Of a stretch of 33,777 nt of DNA, positions 11,373-32,223 are shown one piece after another. Each line of letters starts with the position of its first letter. Positions within the stretch are counted from its first letter, which is position 1. The notes under the pieces were generated by a model that saw only the letters and a program-made list of their open reading frames with translations, made no database searches and was not told the DNA's origin. The stretch is from Oxalobacteraceae bacterium. GTDB taxonomy: Bacteria; Pseudomonadota; Gammaproteobacteria; Burkholderiales; Burkholderiaceae_D. The stretch spans positions 1 through 33,777 of the forward strand of contig CANIFC010000009.1 in NCBI GenBank assembly GCA_947466695.1. The letters run 5' to 3'. The position numbers and the translations under genes are program-made.

Positions 11373-11434
11373 AAGTCATGACCTGTCAAGTTCCGTACTG
11401 ACACACACTGCGACGCTACAAAAGGAGTATGACC

Positions 11435-12310
11435 ATGCCCGATGTGACAAATAATAAAATCCTCGCCGTCACCCTAGACGTGGTTGAAACCGTCCGGGTG
11501 CTCTGGTGGCGCCTGGTTGACTGGATCGCCGTTGTGTCCTGGCCCGTCTTGATCATTACCGGCCTCCTGGTATTCGTCCTGCTTGGCCCGATCGGCTTCG
11601 CGCCTCTCGCTGCAGTATTTTTCTGGGGCTCTATCGCCACCAAGATACTGGCCGGTGGCAAGCGTAAAGCCGACTTGGCGGCTAGCGCCGCAGCCGCCAG
11701 AGCCGATGTAGCAACGCTGGAGCGGCGACTACTGGAAGCGCAGATCGCGGCATTGCAGGCGCAGATCGAGCCGCATTTTTTATTCAATACGCTGGCGCTG
11801 ATCGGGCAACTGATCGAGGACGATCCGGCTCAGGCCGCCAGGGTACACTCAGCCCTGATTCAATACCTGCGGGCAGCCTTGCCAAAAATGCGCGCAACAG
11901 GCAGCAGTACGCTTGAGCAGCAGATGGAATTATCGCGCGCCTATCTGGCGATCATGCAGGCCCGCATGGGAGATCGCCTCACGACGAGCATCGAATTAGC
12001 GCCATCATTGAAGCACGCCCATTTTCCGCCGATGATGTTGCAAACGCTGGTCGAAAACGCGATTAAACATGGCCTTGAACCAAAAATCGAGGGCGGACAT
12101 ATCCACATCAGGGCGCAGCGGATAGACGATGATTTACAGGTCGAGGTCAGCGACAATGGTGTCGGCTTTGATGTCCATGCAGATGACGGGGTCGGCTTGT
12201 CCAATATCCGGGAACGGCTGGCGCTGTTATACGGATCAAGAGCGCAACTGACGGTTGAGGCCCTCGCAGACGCTACCCGGATCAGCATCCGCTTGCCCTA
12301 TAGCGAATAA
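11435..12310 (+). CDS. LytS/YehU-type sensor histidine kinase
   Basis: Two N-terminal hydrophobic segments, then LEAQIAALQAQIEPHFLFNTLALI (His_kinase family), TLVENAIKHGLEP, VSDNGVGFD, GVGLSNIRERL. Start chosen at the ATG 11435 (AAAGGAG at better spacing); the ATG at 11429 is an alternative. Confidence 0.9.
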   Translation: MPDVTNNKILAVTLDVVETVRVLWWRLVDWIAVVSWPVLIITGLLVFVLLGPIGFAPLAAVFFWGSIATKILAGGKRKADLAASAAAARADVATLERRLLEAQIAALQAQIEPHFLFNTLALIGQLIEDDPAQAARVHSALIQYLRAALPKMRATGSSTLEQQMELSRAYLAIMQARMGDRLTTSIELAPSLKHAHFPPMMLQTLVENAIKHGLEPKIEGGHIHIRAQRIDDDLQVEVSDNGVGFDVHADDGVGLSNIRERLALLYGSRAQLTVEALADATRISIRLPYSE

Positions 12311-12390
12311 TGACGTTGAGTAAGAGTGTTCAATAACAGGTTAACTACTTGCGTTCAATCAGTGCGACAAATTACGTCATCAGTGATTAT

Positions 12391-12435
12391 TAAGTACTAT
12401 TTTAAGTACCATTTAAGTATCATTTAAGTACCATT
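12391..12435. repeat. Four tandem imperfect 11-12 bp repeats, consensus TAAGTACCATT
   Basis: TAAGTACTATTT / TAAGTACCATT / TAAGTATCATT / TAAGTACCATT at 12391, 12403, 12414 and 12425. Confidence 0.9.
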
Positions 12436-12479
12436 AAAAACAAGCGTTGATCATTACCGACAACTGAAAGCTGATCGTC

Positions 12480-13265
12480 ATGCCTGATAAATTTACCGCC
12501 GTGATTGCCGATGATGAAGCGCCTATGCGCGAGCAACTTAAGGCGCGCCTGAAAGAGGTCTGGCCTGCACTGCACATCGTCGCGGAAGCTGGCAATGGCA
12601 TTGCCGCCATTGAGCTGGCCCGGCTCCATCGCCCGGATGTAATTTTTCTCGACATCCGGATGCCCGGTAAAAATGGCATCGAGGTAGCCAGCCAGCTCGC
12701 GCAAGTGGCGCAGATTGTATTCGTCACCGCCTACGATGAATATGCGATTACCGCGTTTGAACAAGGAGCGATGGATTATTTGCTCAAGCCCGTCGAGGCG
12801 GATCGACTGGCAAGCACGTGCGAGCGGCTGAAGCAACGGCTGCGGGCGAACGGAAGCGCCGGTCCGGACCACTCAGGAGCGGCCAAAATAGAGCAGCTGC
12901 TGGCGCGCATCATGCAACACAGCCAGGCACGAAAACCCGACTATCTGCGCTGGATACAGGCAAGTGTAGGCAGCACCTTACGTATGATCAGTAGCAAAGA
13001 AGTCTTATTTTTTCGCTCCGATGAAAAATATACCCGGGTACAAACCGCACAGGCGGAGTACCTGATCAAAAAAACGCTCAAGGAACTTGAGGAGGAACTT
13101 GATCCCGATGAATTCTGGCGCATCCACCGCTCCTGCCTGGTCAGGGTCGATGCCATATCAGAGGTGACGCGCGATTTTCGTGGACGTCAGCTGATCCAGG
13201 TAAAAAATCATCCGGAGAAACTCGAGGTGAGCCGCAACCATGGACACTTGTTTCAGCAGATGTAA
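12480..13265 (+). CDS. LytTR-family response regulator
   Basis: Receiver IADDEAPMREQL, FLDIRMPGKNG, VTAYDEYAITAFEQGAMDYLLKPV; C-terminal LytTR: VLFFRSDEKYTRVQT...FWRIHRSCLVRVDAI. Confidence 0.93.
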   Translation: MPDKFTAVIADDEAPMREQLKARLKEVWPALHIVAEAGNGIAAIELARLHRPDVIFLDIRMPGKNGIEVASQLAQVAQIVFVTAYDEYAITAFEQGAMDYLLKPVEADRLASTCERLKQRLRANGSAGPDHSGAAKIEQLLARIMQHSQARKPDYLRWIQASVGSTLRMISSKEVLFFRSDEKYTRVQTAQAEYLIKKTLKELEEELDPDEFWRIHRSCLVRVDAISEVTRDFRGRQLIQVKNHPEKLEVSRNHGHLFQQM

Positions 13266-16323: not shown

Positions 16324-17526
16324 TTACAGCAAGCCAAGATCACGGGCCTTTATCCCTGAAAAAATCTGTTCGAGCTGAGACCCGTTTAGTCCATAGATTC
16401 TGGCAAACAAACCGCCTAATACCGCACGATATTCATTAAGCACGGGATAATCCCGGTTCTGGAATAATTTCCCCGCTTCCAGCCTGACTTGCTCACCCGC
16501 GATACGTCCGCCCTTGACGCCACCGCCGAGAACCCAATACACCGAACCATGACCATGATCGGTACCGCGCTTTCCATTTTCGCGAAAGGTACGGCCAAAT
16601 TCACTGATGACCACGACCGTGGTATTGCTCCATGCGCTACCCATCTCCTTGCGGTAGGCCACCAGGCCACGCCCCAGTTCTTCAAATTTATTGGCCAGCG
16701 TACCGGTTGCACCGCCTTGATTGACATGCGTGTCCCAGCCGCCGACATCGACAAAACCCAGCGCGTATTTATCGCGCATCAACCTGGCCATGCGTTTCGC
16801 TTCCTGTTCAAAACCCTTGGTCGAGAGCGCATTGCGGTTGGCCGAATTCATCTCTTCCTGCAGGGCCTCTTGCTGGCTGCGGATGACTTCGTCGCGTACT
16901 GTAAAACCCTCGTTGACTTGTTGCGCCAGCGCGGTATGACTGTACATCTGGGAGATAATCGCACTTTGCCGCTGGTCCATATTACTTTTACCCAAAGCCT
17001 TGAGCGCGGTGTTGGCCACCGCGCTATTCCCCTGCATGACAATGGGCAGCTGATCAGTAAATGACATGGCACTGGTGCCGTTTATTTGGGCAGACAGGCG
17101 ATTTAAAAAACCCGAGTGCAAGTTGCGTCTGCCATTGAGGGGTTGGCCCAGTTCAATGCTGTCCTGCGTTTCAAAATGACTGCGCGACACATCATCAGTA
17201 CCGGCAAAAGGAATAAACGCCACTTCGCCGCTCTGGTACAGGGAATAAATGGTCTCGCGCAGCGCCGGATGCAAACCCCAGTCTGCATTCAGCAATAAAG
17301 CGGCTTGTTGATCGTCGGCGCCACCAGGTCTGGCAATGGCAATATTCGGTCTCGATTCATAATAAAAATTGCTCGATGTCGGTATCAGCAAATTGCAGGC
17401 ATCATAGCCACCGCGCAAGAACACCAACAGCAAACGGTTTTGCGTTGCCGGGGCGGCGCTCAGCCCGCTTGCCAATGACATGGCGCCCATTGCAGCGCAC
17501 CCTTTGAGTAAATCGCGACGGTTCAT
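16324..17526 (-). CDS. DUF1501 family protein with Tat signal
   Basis: Twin-arginine leader MNRRDLLKGCAAMGAMSLASGLSAAP; LLLVFLRGGYDACNLLIP, GWDTHVNQGG, VVVISEFGRTFRENGKRGTDHGHGSVYWVLGGGVKGG are characteristic of DUF1501. Confidence 0.92.
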   Translation of the reverse strand: MNRRDLLKGCAAMGAMSLASGLSAAPATQNRLLLVFLRGGYDACNLLIPTSSNFYYESRPNIAIARPGGADDQQAALLLNADWGLHPALRETIYSLYQSGEVAFIPFAGTDDVSRSHFETQDSIELGQPLNGRRNLHSGFLNRLSAQINGTSAMSFTDQLPIVMQGNSAVANTALKALGKSNMDQRQSAIISQMYSHTALAQQVNEGFTVRDEVIRSQQEALQEEMNSANRNALSTKGFEQEAKRMARLMRDKYALGFVDVGGWDTHVNQGGATGTLANKFEELGRGLVAYRKEMGSAWSNTTVVVISEFGRTFRENGKRGTDHGHGSVYWVLGGGVKGGRIAGEQVRLEAGKLFQNRDYPVLNEYRAVLGGLFARIYGLNGSQLEQIFSGIKARDLGLL

Positions 17527-17545
17527 CTGGCGCTCCTTGGTATAT

Positions 17546-19195
17546 TTAGCGACGCATCATTTCCGGCGTTGCGAGAAAAAAGGCATTCCATTCCTGTGGC
17601 GTGCCTGCCTGTTGTAATGCTTGTCTGGAGGCGGGGCTAAAATTTTTCAGCCAGTTTTTCACATAGTCCGAATTCGCCAGAGCAGGGCCGGGAATCTCTT
17701 GCGCGCGTACCGGTAACTGTGAATTTTCCATCTTATTTTCAAGCTTGAACAAACCCGGCGTTCCTGCGGCAATGGTCTTGGCAATATCAAAGCGCAAGGT
17801 CATTTGCCCGGGACTGGCCCAGCTAGTCTCCAATAAGGAATATCCATCTGGCGTCTGGCGACCGTTGATCGGTTCACCGAGCGTGTTAAGCCAGTTGAAC
17901 ATCGGGGCGGTATTCATGATGGTAGTACCGTCGTAAGCCAGGCGCACTGACGACACCACATAATGGAGTGGATCCTTGAACTTGCCACCGAGCGAGAGGA
18001 CAAATTCGGGGGCATCAAACATTGTTCTGAGCACGGCAGGTATATCACCATCGCTGCGTAAAAAACTTTGTGCCATGCGCTCAACGAGCGCCGGACTGGG
18101 ACTGTCAGAGACAAAATACACTGCCAGTTTATGGCTGATGAAGCGTGCCGTAGCGGGCTGGCGGCACAAGAGATTAAGTACGTCGTCGAGCTCACTCAAA
18201 CCGCGGCCCCGGATTGTTTTACCCAGAATTTGCTTATCGCTGAAGTCATGCCGTTTGGGATTGAATTCAAACAGGCCGTTCCTGACATAGGCTCTTTGCA
18301 GCTCAGGTGGCAGGCGCGGCGCGTTAGCGTTAACGCCCAGATTCACCCCGACACCAGTAAGTACGCGGGCCAGTTCCTGTACGTCATTTTGGCTGTAACC
18401 GCTACCGACGCCCATGGTGTGAAGTTCCAGCAGTTCACGCGCATAATTTTCGTTGATGCGTCCCACGGCATTGTGTTCATTATCAAGATAGCGCAACATC
18501 GCCGGATGCAACATCGTGGCACGTAGCAGCGCACGAAAATTACCAAGCGCATGAGGGCGGATAGCCTGCTCTTCAAAATCACCCAGCATGGCGCGCAGAT
18601 TGTGTTTGCCGCTATGGATATTAAAATGATTCATCCAGAACCAGCTCATTTGCTCCTGCATCTGGTTGCTTGAATAGACCGACCTCAGCAGTGCACGGGA
18701 AGCCGCTTCGCGTGCGAGTCGTGTCAATTCCTGCTGATACGCCTTGCGCAGGCTGTCGTCGCTGCCCTTGCTTTGTGCCGCCGTTTCGCGCTGTGACTCC
18801 AGCTCAAACATCAGCTGATCAAACGGCCGGCGTGAGATGCTCATGTCATCGATCTGCTGTTGAATCGCTGCAGGCAAAAGCGCGCTGCGACTGCGCAGTT
18901 GCTGATCCAGATAGCGGTCCATGCCCAGCGCCTGCATCTGACGTGAAGAAGAGGCGCTGGCACCCCAGCTGATGCGGTTCAACAGTTGCAGTGGATCAGC
19001 CTTGGCCTGTTGCAGCGTCATGCGCACTCGCATGTCAACCGGCGGCGCAACGCTCACTGTCGCGATGCTTGACTGCGCCGGTTGACGCGCCATCTGCTTA
19101 CCCGGTGTACTGCAGGCAGACATAAAAACGAGCGCAACAACGCCGAGCGACTGACGAAAAGACTGACGGAACGAAGAGCGGAACAGGGCTGGCAT
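17546..19195 (-). CDS. DUF1800 family protein (putative lipoprotein)
   Basis: LLNRISWGASASSSRQMQALGMDRYLDQQL, MSWFWMNHFNIHSGK, INENYARELLELHTMGVGSGYSQNDVQELARVLTGV are characteristic of DUF1800; start placed at Met 19195 before the FMSAC lipobox-like sequence. Confidence 0.92.
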   Translation of the reverse strand: MPALFRSSFRQSFRQSLGVVALVFMSACSTPGKQMARQPAQSSIATVSVAPPVDMRVRMTLQQAKADPLQLLNRISWGASASSSRQMQALGMDRYLDQQLRSRSALLPAAIQQQIDDMSISRRPFDQLMFELESQRETAAQSKGSDDSLRKAYQQELTRLAREAASRALLRSVYSSNQMQEQMSWFWMNHFNIHSGKHNLRAMLGDFEEQAIRPHALGNFRALLRATMLHPAMLRYLDNEHNAVGRINENYARELLELHTMGVGSGYSQNDVQELARVLTGVGVNLGVNANAPRLPPELQRAYVRNGLFEFNPKRHDFSDKQILGKTIRGRGLSELDDVLNLLCRQPATARFISHKLAVYFVSDSPSPALVERMAQSFLRSDGDIPAVLRTMFDAPEFVLSLGGKFKDPLHYVVSSVRLAYDGTTIMNTAPMFNWLNTLGEPINGRQTPDGYSLLETSWASPGQMTLRFDIAKTIAAGTPGLFKLENKMENSQLPVRAQEIPGPALANSDYVKNWLKNFSPASRQALQQAGTPQEWNAFFLATPEMMRR

Positions 19196-19321
19196 GGCAA
19201 TTGACACTTCCAGATAGATGACTTGTCTGCATACAACGCATGGCAAGAAAATTCGTTGTCCTATAAAGTTGCCCTATACAGAAGATTGGTAACTGCATGT
19301 AACAACCTGACCTAAAAAAAT

Positions 19322-28953: not shown

Positions 28954-29757
28954 ATGAATATATTACAAAGAAATAATGTCCGCATAACCGGCAAAGGCGC
29001 GCAACCTATCATTTTTGCCCATGGCTTCGGTTGCGATCAGGTGATGTGGCGCATGATAAGTCCGGCCTTCGAACAAGATTATCAGGTCATCCTTTTTGAT
29101 TACGTCGGTGCTGGCCAGTCTGACCTCGATGCTTACGATCCCTTGCGCTATTCAAGCCTTAATGGTTATGCCAAAGATATCGTCCAAATTTGTGAAGCGC
29201 TTGACCTGCACAATGTCATTCTCGTGGGACATTCCGTCAGCAGCATGATCTGTATGCTCGCCGCAATTGCCATACCGCAGCGCATTGAGAGCATGGTCAT
29301 GATCTGCCCCTCACCTCGCTACATCAATGATCTGCCTGACTATGCAGGTGGTTTTGAACGGGCCGACATCGAAGGCTTGATTGATATGATTTCGCGCAAC
29401 CAGCCTGGCTGGGCTAACTACCTTGCCGGTGTTGTCGCCAAAAATCCGGATCAACCGGCATTGGCGGAAGAACTGGAAGCGAGCTTTTGTGCCATGGATC
29501 CGCCAATCGCCAGACGCTTTGCTGCGACAACTTTTTTAGCGGACAATCGTGTTGATCTGCAGAATTGTAATAAGCCAACCTTAATTATCCAGTGCACTCA
29601 AGACACCGTTTCACCAGTCGAGGTCGGTGATTTTGTACACAGGCAATTGATCAACAGCACTTTGAAAAAAATAAACGCAACAGGGCACTGCCCGCACATG
29701 AGTCATCCAAAAGAGACGATCGATTTAATTAATCAATATCTTAAAAAATCTGCCTAA
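28954..29757 (+). CDS. RsbQ-like alpha/beta hydrolase
   Basis: 267 aa; HGFGCDQVMWRMISPAFEQDYQVILFDYVGAGQSDL, GHSVSSMICMLAA, CPSPRYINDLPDYAGGFE, FCAMDPPIARRFAATTFLADNRVDL, CTQDTVSP, ATGHCPHMSHPKETIDLI closely follow remembered RsbQ motifs, with a Ser-Asp-His triad. Confidence 0.92.
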   Translation: MNILQRNNVRITGKGAQPIIFAHGFGCDQVMWRMISPAFEQDYQVILFDYVGAGQSDLDAYDPLRYSSLNGYAKDIVQICEALDLHNVILVGHSVSSMICMLAAIAIPQRIESMVMICPSPRYINDLPDYAGGFERADIEGLIDMISRNQPGWANYLAGVVAKNPDQPALAEELEASFCAMDPPIARRFAATTFLADNRVDLQNCNKPTLIIQCTQDTVSPVEVGDFVHRQLINSTLKKINATGHCPHMSHPKETIDLINQYLKKSA

Positions 29758-29769
29758 TTTAAGTCATTA

Positions 29770-32223
29770 GTGAACACAACAACTTTAAAATTATCGTTAA
29801 TCGATATTGAGGATGCACCCTGTGGCATTCTGGTGTTTGATGGTGACCTGCGCATCCGCGGGATGAATAAAACACTGGCGGATATACTCGGCCTGGTGCT
29901 GGCTGATGTACCAGGAATGCCGTTTGATCGGTTGCTCACTTCAGCAAACCGTTTAATGTTTCATATCCAGATTCTTACCGTTTTACATATCAATCAGCGC
30001 GTGGAGGAAGTGTCCATTAACCTCGCAGACGTGAACGGCATTAATATTCCCTTTCTTTTTAATGCGGTACAACGCACCTCGGACGATGCGATCCTTACCG
30101 AATGTATCCTTATCCGGGTGAATGAACGCAATCGACTGGAAAATGAGCTGTTTAAAATCAAGAAAGCGACCGAACAATTGCCGGGAGCGGTGTTTCAATT
30201 TCTTTTTCGCGCCGATGGCAGCTCTTGTTTTCCTTACGCCAGTGAAGGTATCCGACACGTTTTTGGCGTCAGTCCCTTGCAGGTACTGACAGATGCCAGC
30301 ATTGCTTTTAAGCGGATTCATCCTGAAGACAGCGATCGGATTGTCAATGGTATTGCAGAATCGTCAAAAACTCTCAGCAACTGGGATCAACAGTACAAGG
30401 TCAATCTTCCGCGCCGTGGTACCCGCTGGCTGGAAGCGCAAGCGACACCTGAGGAACGTTCTGATGGCAGTGTGTTATGGCACGGCTATATCTCCGACAT
30501 TACCGAGCGAAAAACACTCGAAGCTGCTCTCGCATTTGAACATGAACGCACTCTGGTGACGTTAAACTCGATCGGCGATGCGGTCATCACTACGAACCAA
30601 TTTGAAAAAATTGTCTTTATCAACCCAGTGGCAGAAAATATGACGGGTTGGATTCAGGCCGAAGCGGTGGGACAACCGGTGATTTCCGTGTTTAACATTG
30701 TTAATCAACGTACTCGCCTGAGCGAAAAAAGCCCGATTGCCCAGTGCATACAGGACCGCGCTATTGTTGCTTTGGCGAGAGAGACAACACTCATCAGCAA
30801 AGGAGGAGTTGAATACCCTGTCGAATATTCTGCTGCACCAATTTTTTCTTCCCGCGAGACTATCGCCGGAGTTGTCATGGTATTTCGTGATGTGTCAGGC
30901 CAGCGCAGGTTGATACAGGAAGTGGAACACCGCGCCAGCCATGATCATCTGACCGGCCTGTTTAATCGTGTCGAATTTGATCGTGTGATTAAAGAGATGC
31001 TCCATTCTTCTCAGGCGAAAGGAACAGTACACAGTTTATGCTGTATTGATCTTGATCAGTTCAAGATTGTTAATGACAACTGCGGGCATGCTGCAGGTGA
31101 CGTACTGCTCAAGCAAATAGCAGAACTATTACTCAAATCGGTACGTGCCAAAGATACCGTGGTACGTTTGGGTGGTGACGAGTTCGCTCTGCTGCTTGAC
31201 GGCTGCGATATCATTTCGGCGCAACGTATTGCCCAGACAATTTGTGACCGCGTAGCGGAAATTCGCTTTAAACATGATGGAAAACTCTTTCGAATCGGTG
31301 CCAGTATTGGTATTGCACAGATTGATCAACATTGTGATGGCGTACAAAATATTCAGTTGGCAGCAGATGGCGCGTGTTTCTCAGCCAAAAATGCAGGCCG
31401 TGGTCGTGTCCATATCTTTGAAGCAAATAATAAGGCAATGTTAGCCCGGCATGATCAATTACAGTGGTCAGACCGGCTTCAGGAGGCGATAGAAAATAAC
31501 CGTTTCGAACTCTTCGCTCAACCGATCATGCCGTTGCGAGAAAATAGCGCTCCTGGACTGTATTTTGAAGTCCTGCTGCGCATGCGTGACACGGATGGCA
31601 GTCTGATACCACCGGGGGCATTTATTCCTGAAGCGGAGCGCTATGGAGTAATTGCGAAAATTGACCGCTGGGTAATTAGCCGCGTCAGTGCCTGGATGAA
31701 ATTACAGCACGATATTAATGTCCGCATTAACACGATCGTCATTAATCTATCAGGCAAGTCCGTTGGTGACCGTGCGTTCCAGCGATTTGTCACTGAATTA
31801 CTCGATCACGGACAAATAGCCCCTGATAAGCTTTGTTTTGAAATTGCAGAAGCTTCAACGATTGAGCATATCGGTGAAGCCCTGGAGTTTTTTAATGTAT
31901 TGCGTCAACGTGGTCTGCGAATTTCACTCGACAATTTTGGCGGCGGGGTGTCTTCTATGGCAGATCTGAAATTTTTACCAGTCGATTATCTTAAAATTGA
32001 CCGGCGCTTTGTCAATAACATTGCAGCCGATCCAGTCGATTTTGCCATGGTGCGAAGTATCAATGAAATTTCACATCTGACCGGTAAGCTGACGATTGCT
32101 GAATTCGTTGAGAGCGAATCCGTGCTGACACTGTTGCGCGAACTAGGTGTCGACTTTGCCCAGGGTTTTCATATCGGGAAACCACTACCCATAGACCAGA
32201 TATTTCAATGGACACCAAAGTAG
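29770..32223 (+). CDS. PAS-GGDEF-EAL protein (predicted c-di-GMP enzyme)
   Basis: GTG start 13 nt after the hydrolase stop. N-terminal PAS (APCGILVFDGDLRIRGMNKTLADILGL...VEEVSINLADVNGINIPFLFNAV), further PAS regions, RAKD-TVVRL-GGDEF, then FEVLLR, SLDNFGGGVSSM, LKIDRRFV, AQGFHIGKPLP of an EAL domain. Confidence 0.94.
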   Translation: MNTTTLKLSLIDIEDAPCGILVFDGDLRIRGMNKTLADILGLVLADVPGMPFDRLLTSANRLMFHIQILTVLHINQRVEEVSINLADVNGINIPFLFNAVQRTSDDAILTECILIRVNERNRLENELFKIKKATEQLPGAVFQFLFRADGSSCFPYASEGIRHVFGVSPLQVLTDASIAFKRIHPEDSDRIVNGIAESSKTLSNWDQQYKVNLPRRGTRWLEAQATPEERSDGSVLWHGYISDITERKTLEAALAFEHERTLVTLNSIGDAVITTNQFEKIVFINPVAENMTGWIQAEAVGQPVISVFNIVNQRTRLSEKSPIAQCIQDRAIVALARETTLISKGGVEYPVEYSAAPIFSSRETIAGVVMVFRDVSGQRRLIQEVEHRASHDHLTGLFNRVEFDRVIKEMLHSSQAKGTVHSLCCIDLDQFKIVNDNCGHAAGDVLLKQIAELLLKSVRAKDTVVRLGGDEFALLLDGCDIISAQRIAQTICDRVAEIRFKHDGKLFRIGASIGIAQIDQHCDGVQNIQLAADGACFSAKNAGRGRVHIFEANNKAMLARHDQLQWSDRLQEAIENNRFELFAQPIMPLRENSAPGLYFEVLLRMRDTDGSLIPPGAFIPEAERYGVIAKIDRWVISRVSAWMKLQHDINVRINTIVINLSGKSVGDRAFQRFVTELLDHGQIAPDKLCFEIAEASTIEHIGEALEFFNVLRQRGLRISLDNFGGGVSSMADLKFLPVDYLKIDRRFVNNIAADPVDFAMVRSINEISHLTGKLTIAEFVESESVLTLLRELGVDFAQGFHIGKPLPIDQIFQWTPK

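Follow-up and report, generated by a model that had tools for sequence, protein, structure and literature searches.

What does an alpha/beta hydrolase gene do directly upstream of a gene encoding a PAS-GGDEF-EAL protein, and, if the two products form a sensing pair, how do they touch? Here we examine such a locus in a 33,777-nucleotide stretch of DNA from an Oxalobacteraceae bacterium (positions 1 to 33,777 of contig CANIFC010000009.1, assembly GCA_947466695.1), hereafter the window. The locus is very probably a sensing module of the RsbQ/RsbP-PAS kind whose output is c-di-GMP, a biofilm messenger. Pairing of this module with such an output is known, and what is new is more modest: a branch of the module that lacks the contact residues required in Bacillus.

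The hydrolase, its partner and the branch to which they belong

The two open reading frames of the preliminary description, a hydrolase gene followed by a GTG-started PAS-GGDEF-EAL gene, were confirmed at their coordinates. The hydrolase stop codon occupies 29755-29757 and the partner GTG lies at 29770 on the same strand, leaving a gap of 12 nt rather than the 13 nt first given. The pair is present in a single copy in the genome (65% complete, 3.6 Mb; the window is contig 9), and its features are as follows.

28954..29757, + strand: RsbQ-type alpha/beta hydrolase, 267 aa (phmmer and model against RsbQ 1wom)
29233..29235, + strand: catalytic Ser94, RsbQ S96 (alignment)
29311..29538, + strand: cap (lid), residues about 120-195 (helices from model, branch positions from alignment)
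29602..29604, + strand: catalytic Asp217, RsbQ D219 (alignment)
29686..29688, + strand: catalytic His245, RsbQ H247 (alignment)
29770..32223, + strand: RsbP-PAS - PAS - PAS - GGDEF - EAL protein, 817 aa, GTG start (open reading frame and domain calls)
29809..30117, + strand: RsbP-type PAS domain, residues 14-116 (profile of non-branch pairs)
29941..29994, + strand: F-alpha helix of this PAS, residues 58-75, with Met63, Gln67 and Thr70 for RsbP Phe55, Tyr59 and Pro62 (alignment, model)
30100..30219, + strand: linker from RsbP-PAS to second PAS, residues 111-150 (conservation in branch)
30235..30483, + strand: second PAS, PAS_3 (Pfam)
30559..30894, + strand: third PAS (Pfam)
30934..31404, + strand: GGDEF domain, with GGDEF motif at 31171-31185 and RxxD inhibitory site RAKD at 31144-31155 (Pfam, alignment)
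31471..32184, + strand: EAL domain, nearest solved relative RbdA/PA0861 (Pfam, similarity search)
31933..31935, + strand: Asn722 of the EAL domain, replacing the second Asp of DDFG, RocR D296 (sequence, alignment)

Elsewhere in the window, adjoining DUF1501 and DUF1800 genes lie beside a calcineurin-like phosphoesterase gene (16327-19246), and a LytS-type histidine kinase is paired with a LytTR response regulator (11429-13262).

Against B. subtilis RsbQ (1wom, 1wpr), the hydrolase aligns over residues 2-265 with E=1e-95 (phmmer), and against the RsbQ-like protein of Oleispira (3qvm) it gives E=4e-79, whereas its similarity to plant KAI2/D14 is far weaker at only ~1e-50. Its model superposes on 1wom with a TM score of 0.95 (by target length), an rmsd of 1.1 and ~52% identity. 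We assembled a survey set of 124 distinct RsbQ loci, drawing on 80 GTDB loci and on additional genomes within the family, and the Ser-Asp-His triad is kept in the window and throughout the 124 aligned homologues. Both marks of the RsbQ family, the triad and similarity at RsbQ level, are thus present, and by sequence and model the hydrolase is an RsbQ orthologue, bearing out its first description as an RsbQ-like enzyme with an intact triad.

The first PAS domain had been likened to that of RsbP, and this likeness holds up. To avoid circularity, we built a profile from 105 RsbQ-partnered PAS domains, all outside the branch of the window. It matched residues 13-124 of the partner with 90 bits (E=3.8e-24, Z=1e6), far beyond chance, and was specific to this domain: the third, C-terminal PAS scored just 1.4 bits and the second was not reported. 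The residues that characterise the RsbP-PAS class (C10, L13, L48, a basic residue at 53, E72 and P86) are C, L, L, R, E and P in the window. As the class expects, the DIT motif is absent from the end of the first PAS (ECILIRVNERNRLE); it is present at the end of the second. The RsbQ gene lies directly upstream and RsbP-PAS is the most N-terminal domain, as expected of the module.

The exact order of RsbP-PAS, PAS, PAS, GGDEF and EAL occurs in 12 genomes (Undibacterium, Glaciimonas, Janthinobacterium and another genus of the family), and a Rhodoferax locus (L010) with identical architecture minus the EAL is the 13th member of the branch. The pair is adjacent in 13 of 13.

The predicted c-di-GMP output

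Pfam resolves the 817-aa partner into PAS, PAS_3, PAS, GGDEF and EAL. The cyclase motifs RLGGDEF, IDLDQFKIVND (metal and substrate binding) and RAKD are all present in the window, and the GGDEF, metal/substrate motif and RxxD site are intact throughout the 13 branch members. The GGDEF domain is therefore predicted to be a cyclase, with its active diguanylate cyclase motifs and I-site intact. The EAL domain is altered at one position. It retains the counterparts of RocR E175, N233, E265, E268, D295, K316, E352 and Q372 and differs only at D296, a metal ligand of the EAL domain in RocR (PMC7911125), the window reading LDNFGGG for LDDFGSG. The full set of metal and catalytic residues of an active EAL phosphodiesterase is thus incomplete here. 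Given this altered metal site beside an intact GGDEF and I-site, the window EAL is on balance probably a weak or dead phosphodiesterase and the net output c-di-GMP synthesis; the EAL may perhaps serve as a binding domain. The output domains are c-di-GMP enzymes, as the preliminary description had it, although the simple turnover that it envisaged fits the altered EAL less well than net synthesis.

The same module could be bifunctional or act mainly as a phosphodiesterase, with RsbQ and the PAS relieving or triggering degradation of c-di-GMP by the EAL, as in RbdA. The nearest solved EAL is indeed that of RbdA/PA0861, and the EAL Glu, the Asn, both Glu, the Lys, the catalytic Glu of AEFVE and the Gln are kept, so that some residual activity is possible; moreover, five branch relatives (L004, L007, L114, L115 and L148) have intact EAL motifs with DDFG. 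Against this stand the Asp-to-Asn change at the second Asp of DDFG, shared by the window and Glaciimonas, the further decay of the Glaciimonas EAL, which also has Gln for E265, the loss of the domain in Rhodoferax, and a conservation within the branch of 61% for the EAL versus 70% for the GGDEF. We regard a mainly degradative or bifunctional output as rather unlikely.

With net synthesis as the favoured output, the module would probably work as follows. A small-molecule ligand would enter RsbQ, where it would be bound and probably hydrolysed, and RsbQ would then contact the N-terminal PAS of its partner. From there the signal would pass along the helical linker, which at 77% mean pairwise identity is better conserved than any other stretch in the branch, and by way of the second and third PAS reach the GGDEF, which would respond with changed c-di-GMP synthesis. 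Such a switch may bear on biofilm or motility, as the preliminary description proposed. That RsbQ binds the PAS and needs its triad in this pair is inferred from B. subtilis.

A possibly altered contact face

In B. subtilis, F55 and Y59 of RsbP contact RsbQ, and alanine mutants at these positions lose RsbQ binding and signalling (PMC3183031). We transferred RsbP numbering without gaps via Neobacillus L053, in which C10, L13, L48, F55, Y59, P62, E72 and P86 stand at their published positions. Among the 105 PAS domains outside the branch, position 55 is Phe or Tyr in 102, position 59 His or Tyr in 102, and position 62 Pro in 103. The 13 branch members include none with Phe or Tyr at 55 (Met, Glu, Gly, Val or Leu instead), none with His or Tyr at 59 (Gln or Arg) and none with Pro at 62 (Thr, Ala or Ser); in the window, the aromatic residue at 55, the His or Tyr at 59 and P62 are replaced by Met, Gln and Thr. 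Phe56 and His57 are invariant across all 13. Because positions 55, 59 and 62 are a class consensus and not a strict requirement of homology, the window PAS is, as aligned, a member of a divergent branch of the RsbQ/RsbP-PAS module rather than an outsider.

The F-alpha helix is predicted intact by the model, with 55, 59 and 62 spaced i, i+4 and i+7 on one face. A shift of helix register behind the change at F55 was ruled out, the spacing from Arg53 to Glu72 being equal without gaps. AlphaFold modelling of RsbQ and PAS as a linked chain, in which the in-frame stop codon was read as a residue solely to serve as a modelling linker, folded both domains well (mean pLDDT 93) and gave a pTM of 0.75 for the window and 0.72 for a canonical pair (L008), with no confident contact in either, and so speaks neither for nor against binding.

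Branch RsbQ proteins differ from the rest at 12 positions, F111I among them, and seven of these lie in the cap (M146I, K148R, Y150Q, P159G, 176A, S180A and T181M), an enrichment with a hypergeometric P of 0.026, uncorrected for phylogeny. The branch forms a single clade in the trees of both partners, with SH-aLRT support of 100 for RsbQ and of 92 for the PAS, the F-alpha columns being excluded from the latter, and both partners therefore changed on the same lineage. This pattern suggests coevolution of the RsbQ-PAS interface in the branch, as distinct from proving it, since it reflects a single evolutionary event. Inter-protein mutual information over 118 pairs placed cap-to-PAS pairs such as 159-58, 145-57 and 156-52 in its top list; unrelated pairs, 255-56 for example, appear there as well, and with an effective number of only 53 sequences the list is unusable as proof. 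Outside the branch there is no correlation between RsbQ 150 and PAS 59, and three other pairs with Gln59 have Tyr or Phe at 150, so that this link, too, hangs on one event.

We infer that the branch altered how RsbQ and PAS touch. A more specific version, in which the RsbQ cap and the F-alpha face of the PAS changed together in this Burkholderiales branch into a second, orthogonal docking interface, is possible and is offered tentatively; were it true, branch RsbQ and PAS would pair with each other and not with canonical partners. A different reading is that RsbQ no longer touches the PAS and only makes or removes a diffusible PAS ligand, as in Model 1 of Nadezhdin et al. but with no direct delivery. 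The loss of the aromatic residue at 59 and of the proline at 62 speaks for it, as does position 55, which is not only changed in the branch but variable. Nevertheless, adjacency of the genes is kept in every branch member, branch RsbQ has changes of its own that concentrate in the cap, and Phe56 and His57 of the PAS are newly invariant, all of which is easier to reconcile with a contact that has shifted than with one that has disappeared, and we consider a purely diffusible ligand distinctly improbable.

The two published models of RsbQ-PAS signalling disagree on the role of the hydrolase, which in one hands over a product and in the other acts as the receptor, and a branch that has kept the gene pair and the triad while losing the F55 and Y59 contact is a clean natural test. 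Should branch RsbQ still bind its PAS, the interface has shifted and swaps could map it; otherwise the balance tips towards a product that is delivered or diffuses. For such work a c-di-GMP output is simpler to read than sigma-B.

Outputs of the module and comparison with known systems

An RsbP-PAS gene lies directly downstream of RsbQ in 119 of the 124 surveyed loci, two of the five exceptions being at a contig end; the pair is thus conserved in relatives and across phyla. That the neighbours are unrelated, each an ordinary gene of its kind, would sit well with the lack of a strong ribosome-binding site before the partner GTG, but chance association is ruled out by this pairing in many phyla and by the agreement of the RsbQ and PAS trees. 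Distance matrices of RsbQ and PAS are likewise correlated, with a Mantel r of 0.77, the best of 1000 shuffles reaching 0.17. The flanking genes are conserved no further than the nearest relative, which indicates that RsbQ and its partner gene move as a unit.

We typed the outputs of the 119 partners with our own domain profiles. Kinases, with or without a receiver and counting GAF and PAS variants, account for 62, GGDEF without EAL for 25, GGDEF-EAL for 14, short PAS-only or truncated partners for 10, PP2C for seven and STAS for one. GGDEF and EAL partners beside RsbQ homologues, for which the preliminary description had proposed a survey, were found. The accompanying proposal that c-di-GMP turnover had replaced a phosphatase output does not follow: the phosphatase is one of several outputs and a minority, and nothing shows it as the ancestor. 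RsbQ occurs in 10 of 44 genomes of the genus of the window, five with PAS-PAS-PAS-GGDEF-EAL and five with a shorter PAS-GGDEF partner, never together. Within the family 154 of 394 genomes have the module, against 2 of 368 in the rest of the class, counted at the slightly different cut-offs of 1e-60 and 1e-70.

Some partners depart from these architectures. In nine cyanobacterial loci (L012, L017, L018, L033, L037, L045, L048, L055 and L057) RsbP-PAS is followed by GAF and then GGDEF beside RsbQ. In Paenibacillus (L042, L043, L046, L052, L061 and L067) the gene 3' of RsbQ encodes about 170-200 aa, an RsbP-PAS with a helical tail that has neither a fused output domain nor an obvious one next to it; here the RsbQ-PAS module stands alone. 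The partner in an Acidobacteriota locus (L013:6800-7609) is RsbP-PAS plus STAS (Pfam E=6.5e-9), outside the three output classes of the 2011 paper (PMC3183031), and could link RsbQ directly to a partner-switching cascade.

The pairing itself is not novel. Nadezhdin, Brody and Price named the module in 2011 from 45 RsbQ/RsbP-PAS pairs, whose outputs they gave as PP2C, kinase or diguanylate cyclase, with an EAL present in three (PMC3183031); a 2025 eLife paper restated the GGDEF coupling and gave an AlphaFold model of RsbP-RsbQ (PMC12143880). No experiment on a GGDEF-coupled RsbQ pair was found in the literature searched. The closest precedent is one of those three, A1SX34 of Psychromonas ingrahamii, with RsbP-PAS, a heterologous PAS, cyclase and phosphodiesterase (PMC3183031). 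Like the window protein it has an RsbQ gene immediately upstream, RsbP-PAS as its most N-terminal domain, and GGDEF then EAL after extra heterologous PAS sequence; the window differs in having two extra PAS domains instead of one, replaced residues at 55, 59 and 62, and an altered EAL metal site. The B. subtilis RsbQ-RsbP pair, which activates sigma-B on energy stress, shares with the window the ~52% identical RsbQ, the same triad and a homologous PAS, whereas the output of RsbP is a PP2C phosphatase reached via a coiled coil and its contacts F55, Y59 and P62 differ. In Pseudomonas aeruginosa, RbdA/PA0861 is of the same GGDEF-EAL type and provides the nearest solved EAL (E=8e-73) but keeps the Asp pair of DDF where the window has Asn. 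RbdA combines both domains and has been investigated as a factor in dispersal, and we know of no RsbQ partner for it. Plant KAI2/D14 share the fold, the triad and the four-helix cap at ~35% identity; their partners are F-box and SMXL proteins, not PAS domains, and in sequence the window hydrolase is far closer to RsbQ.
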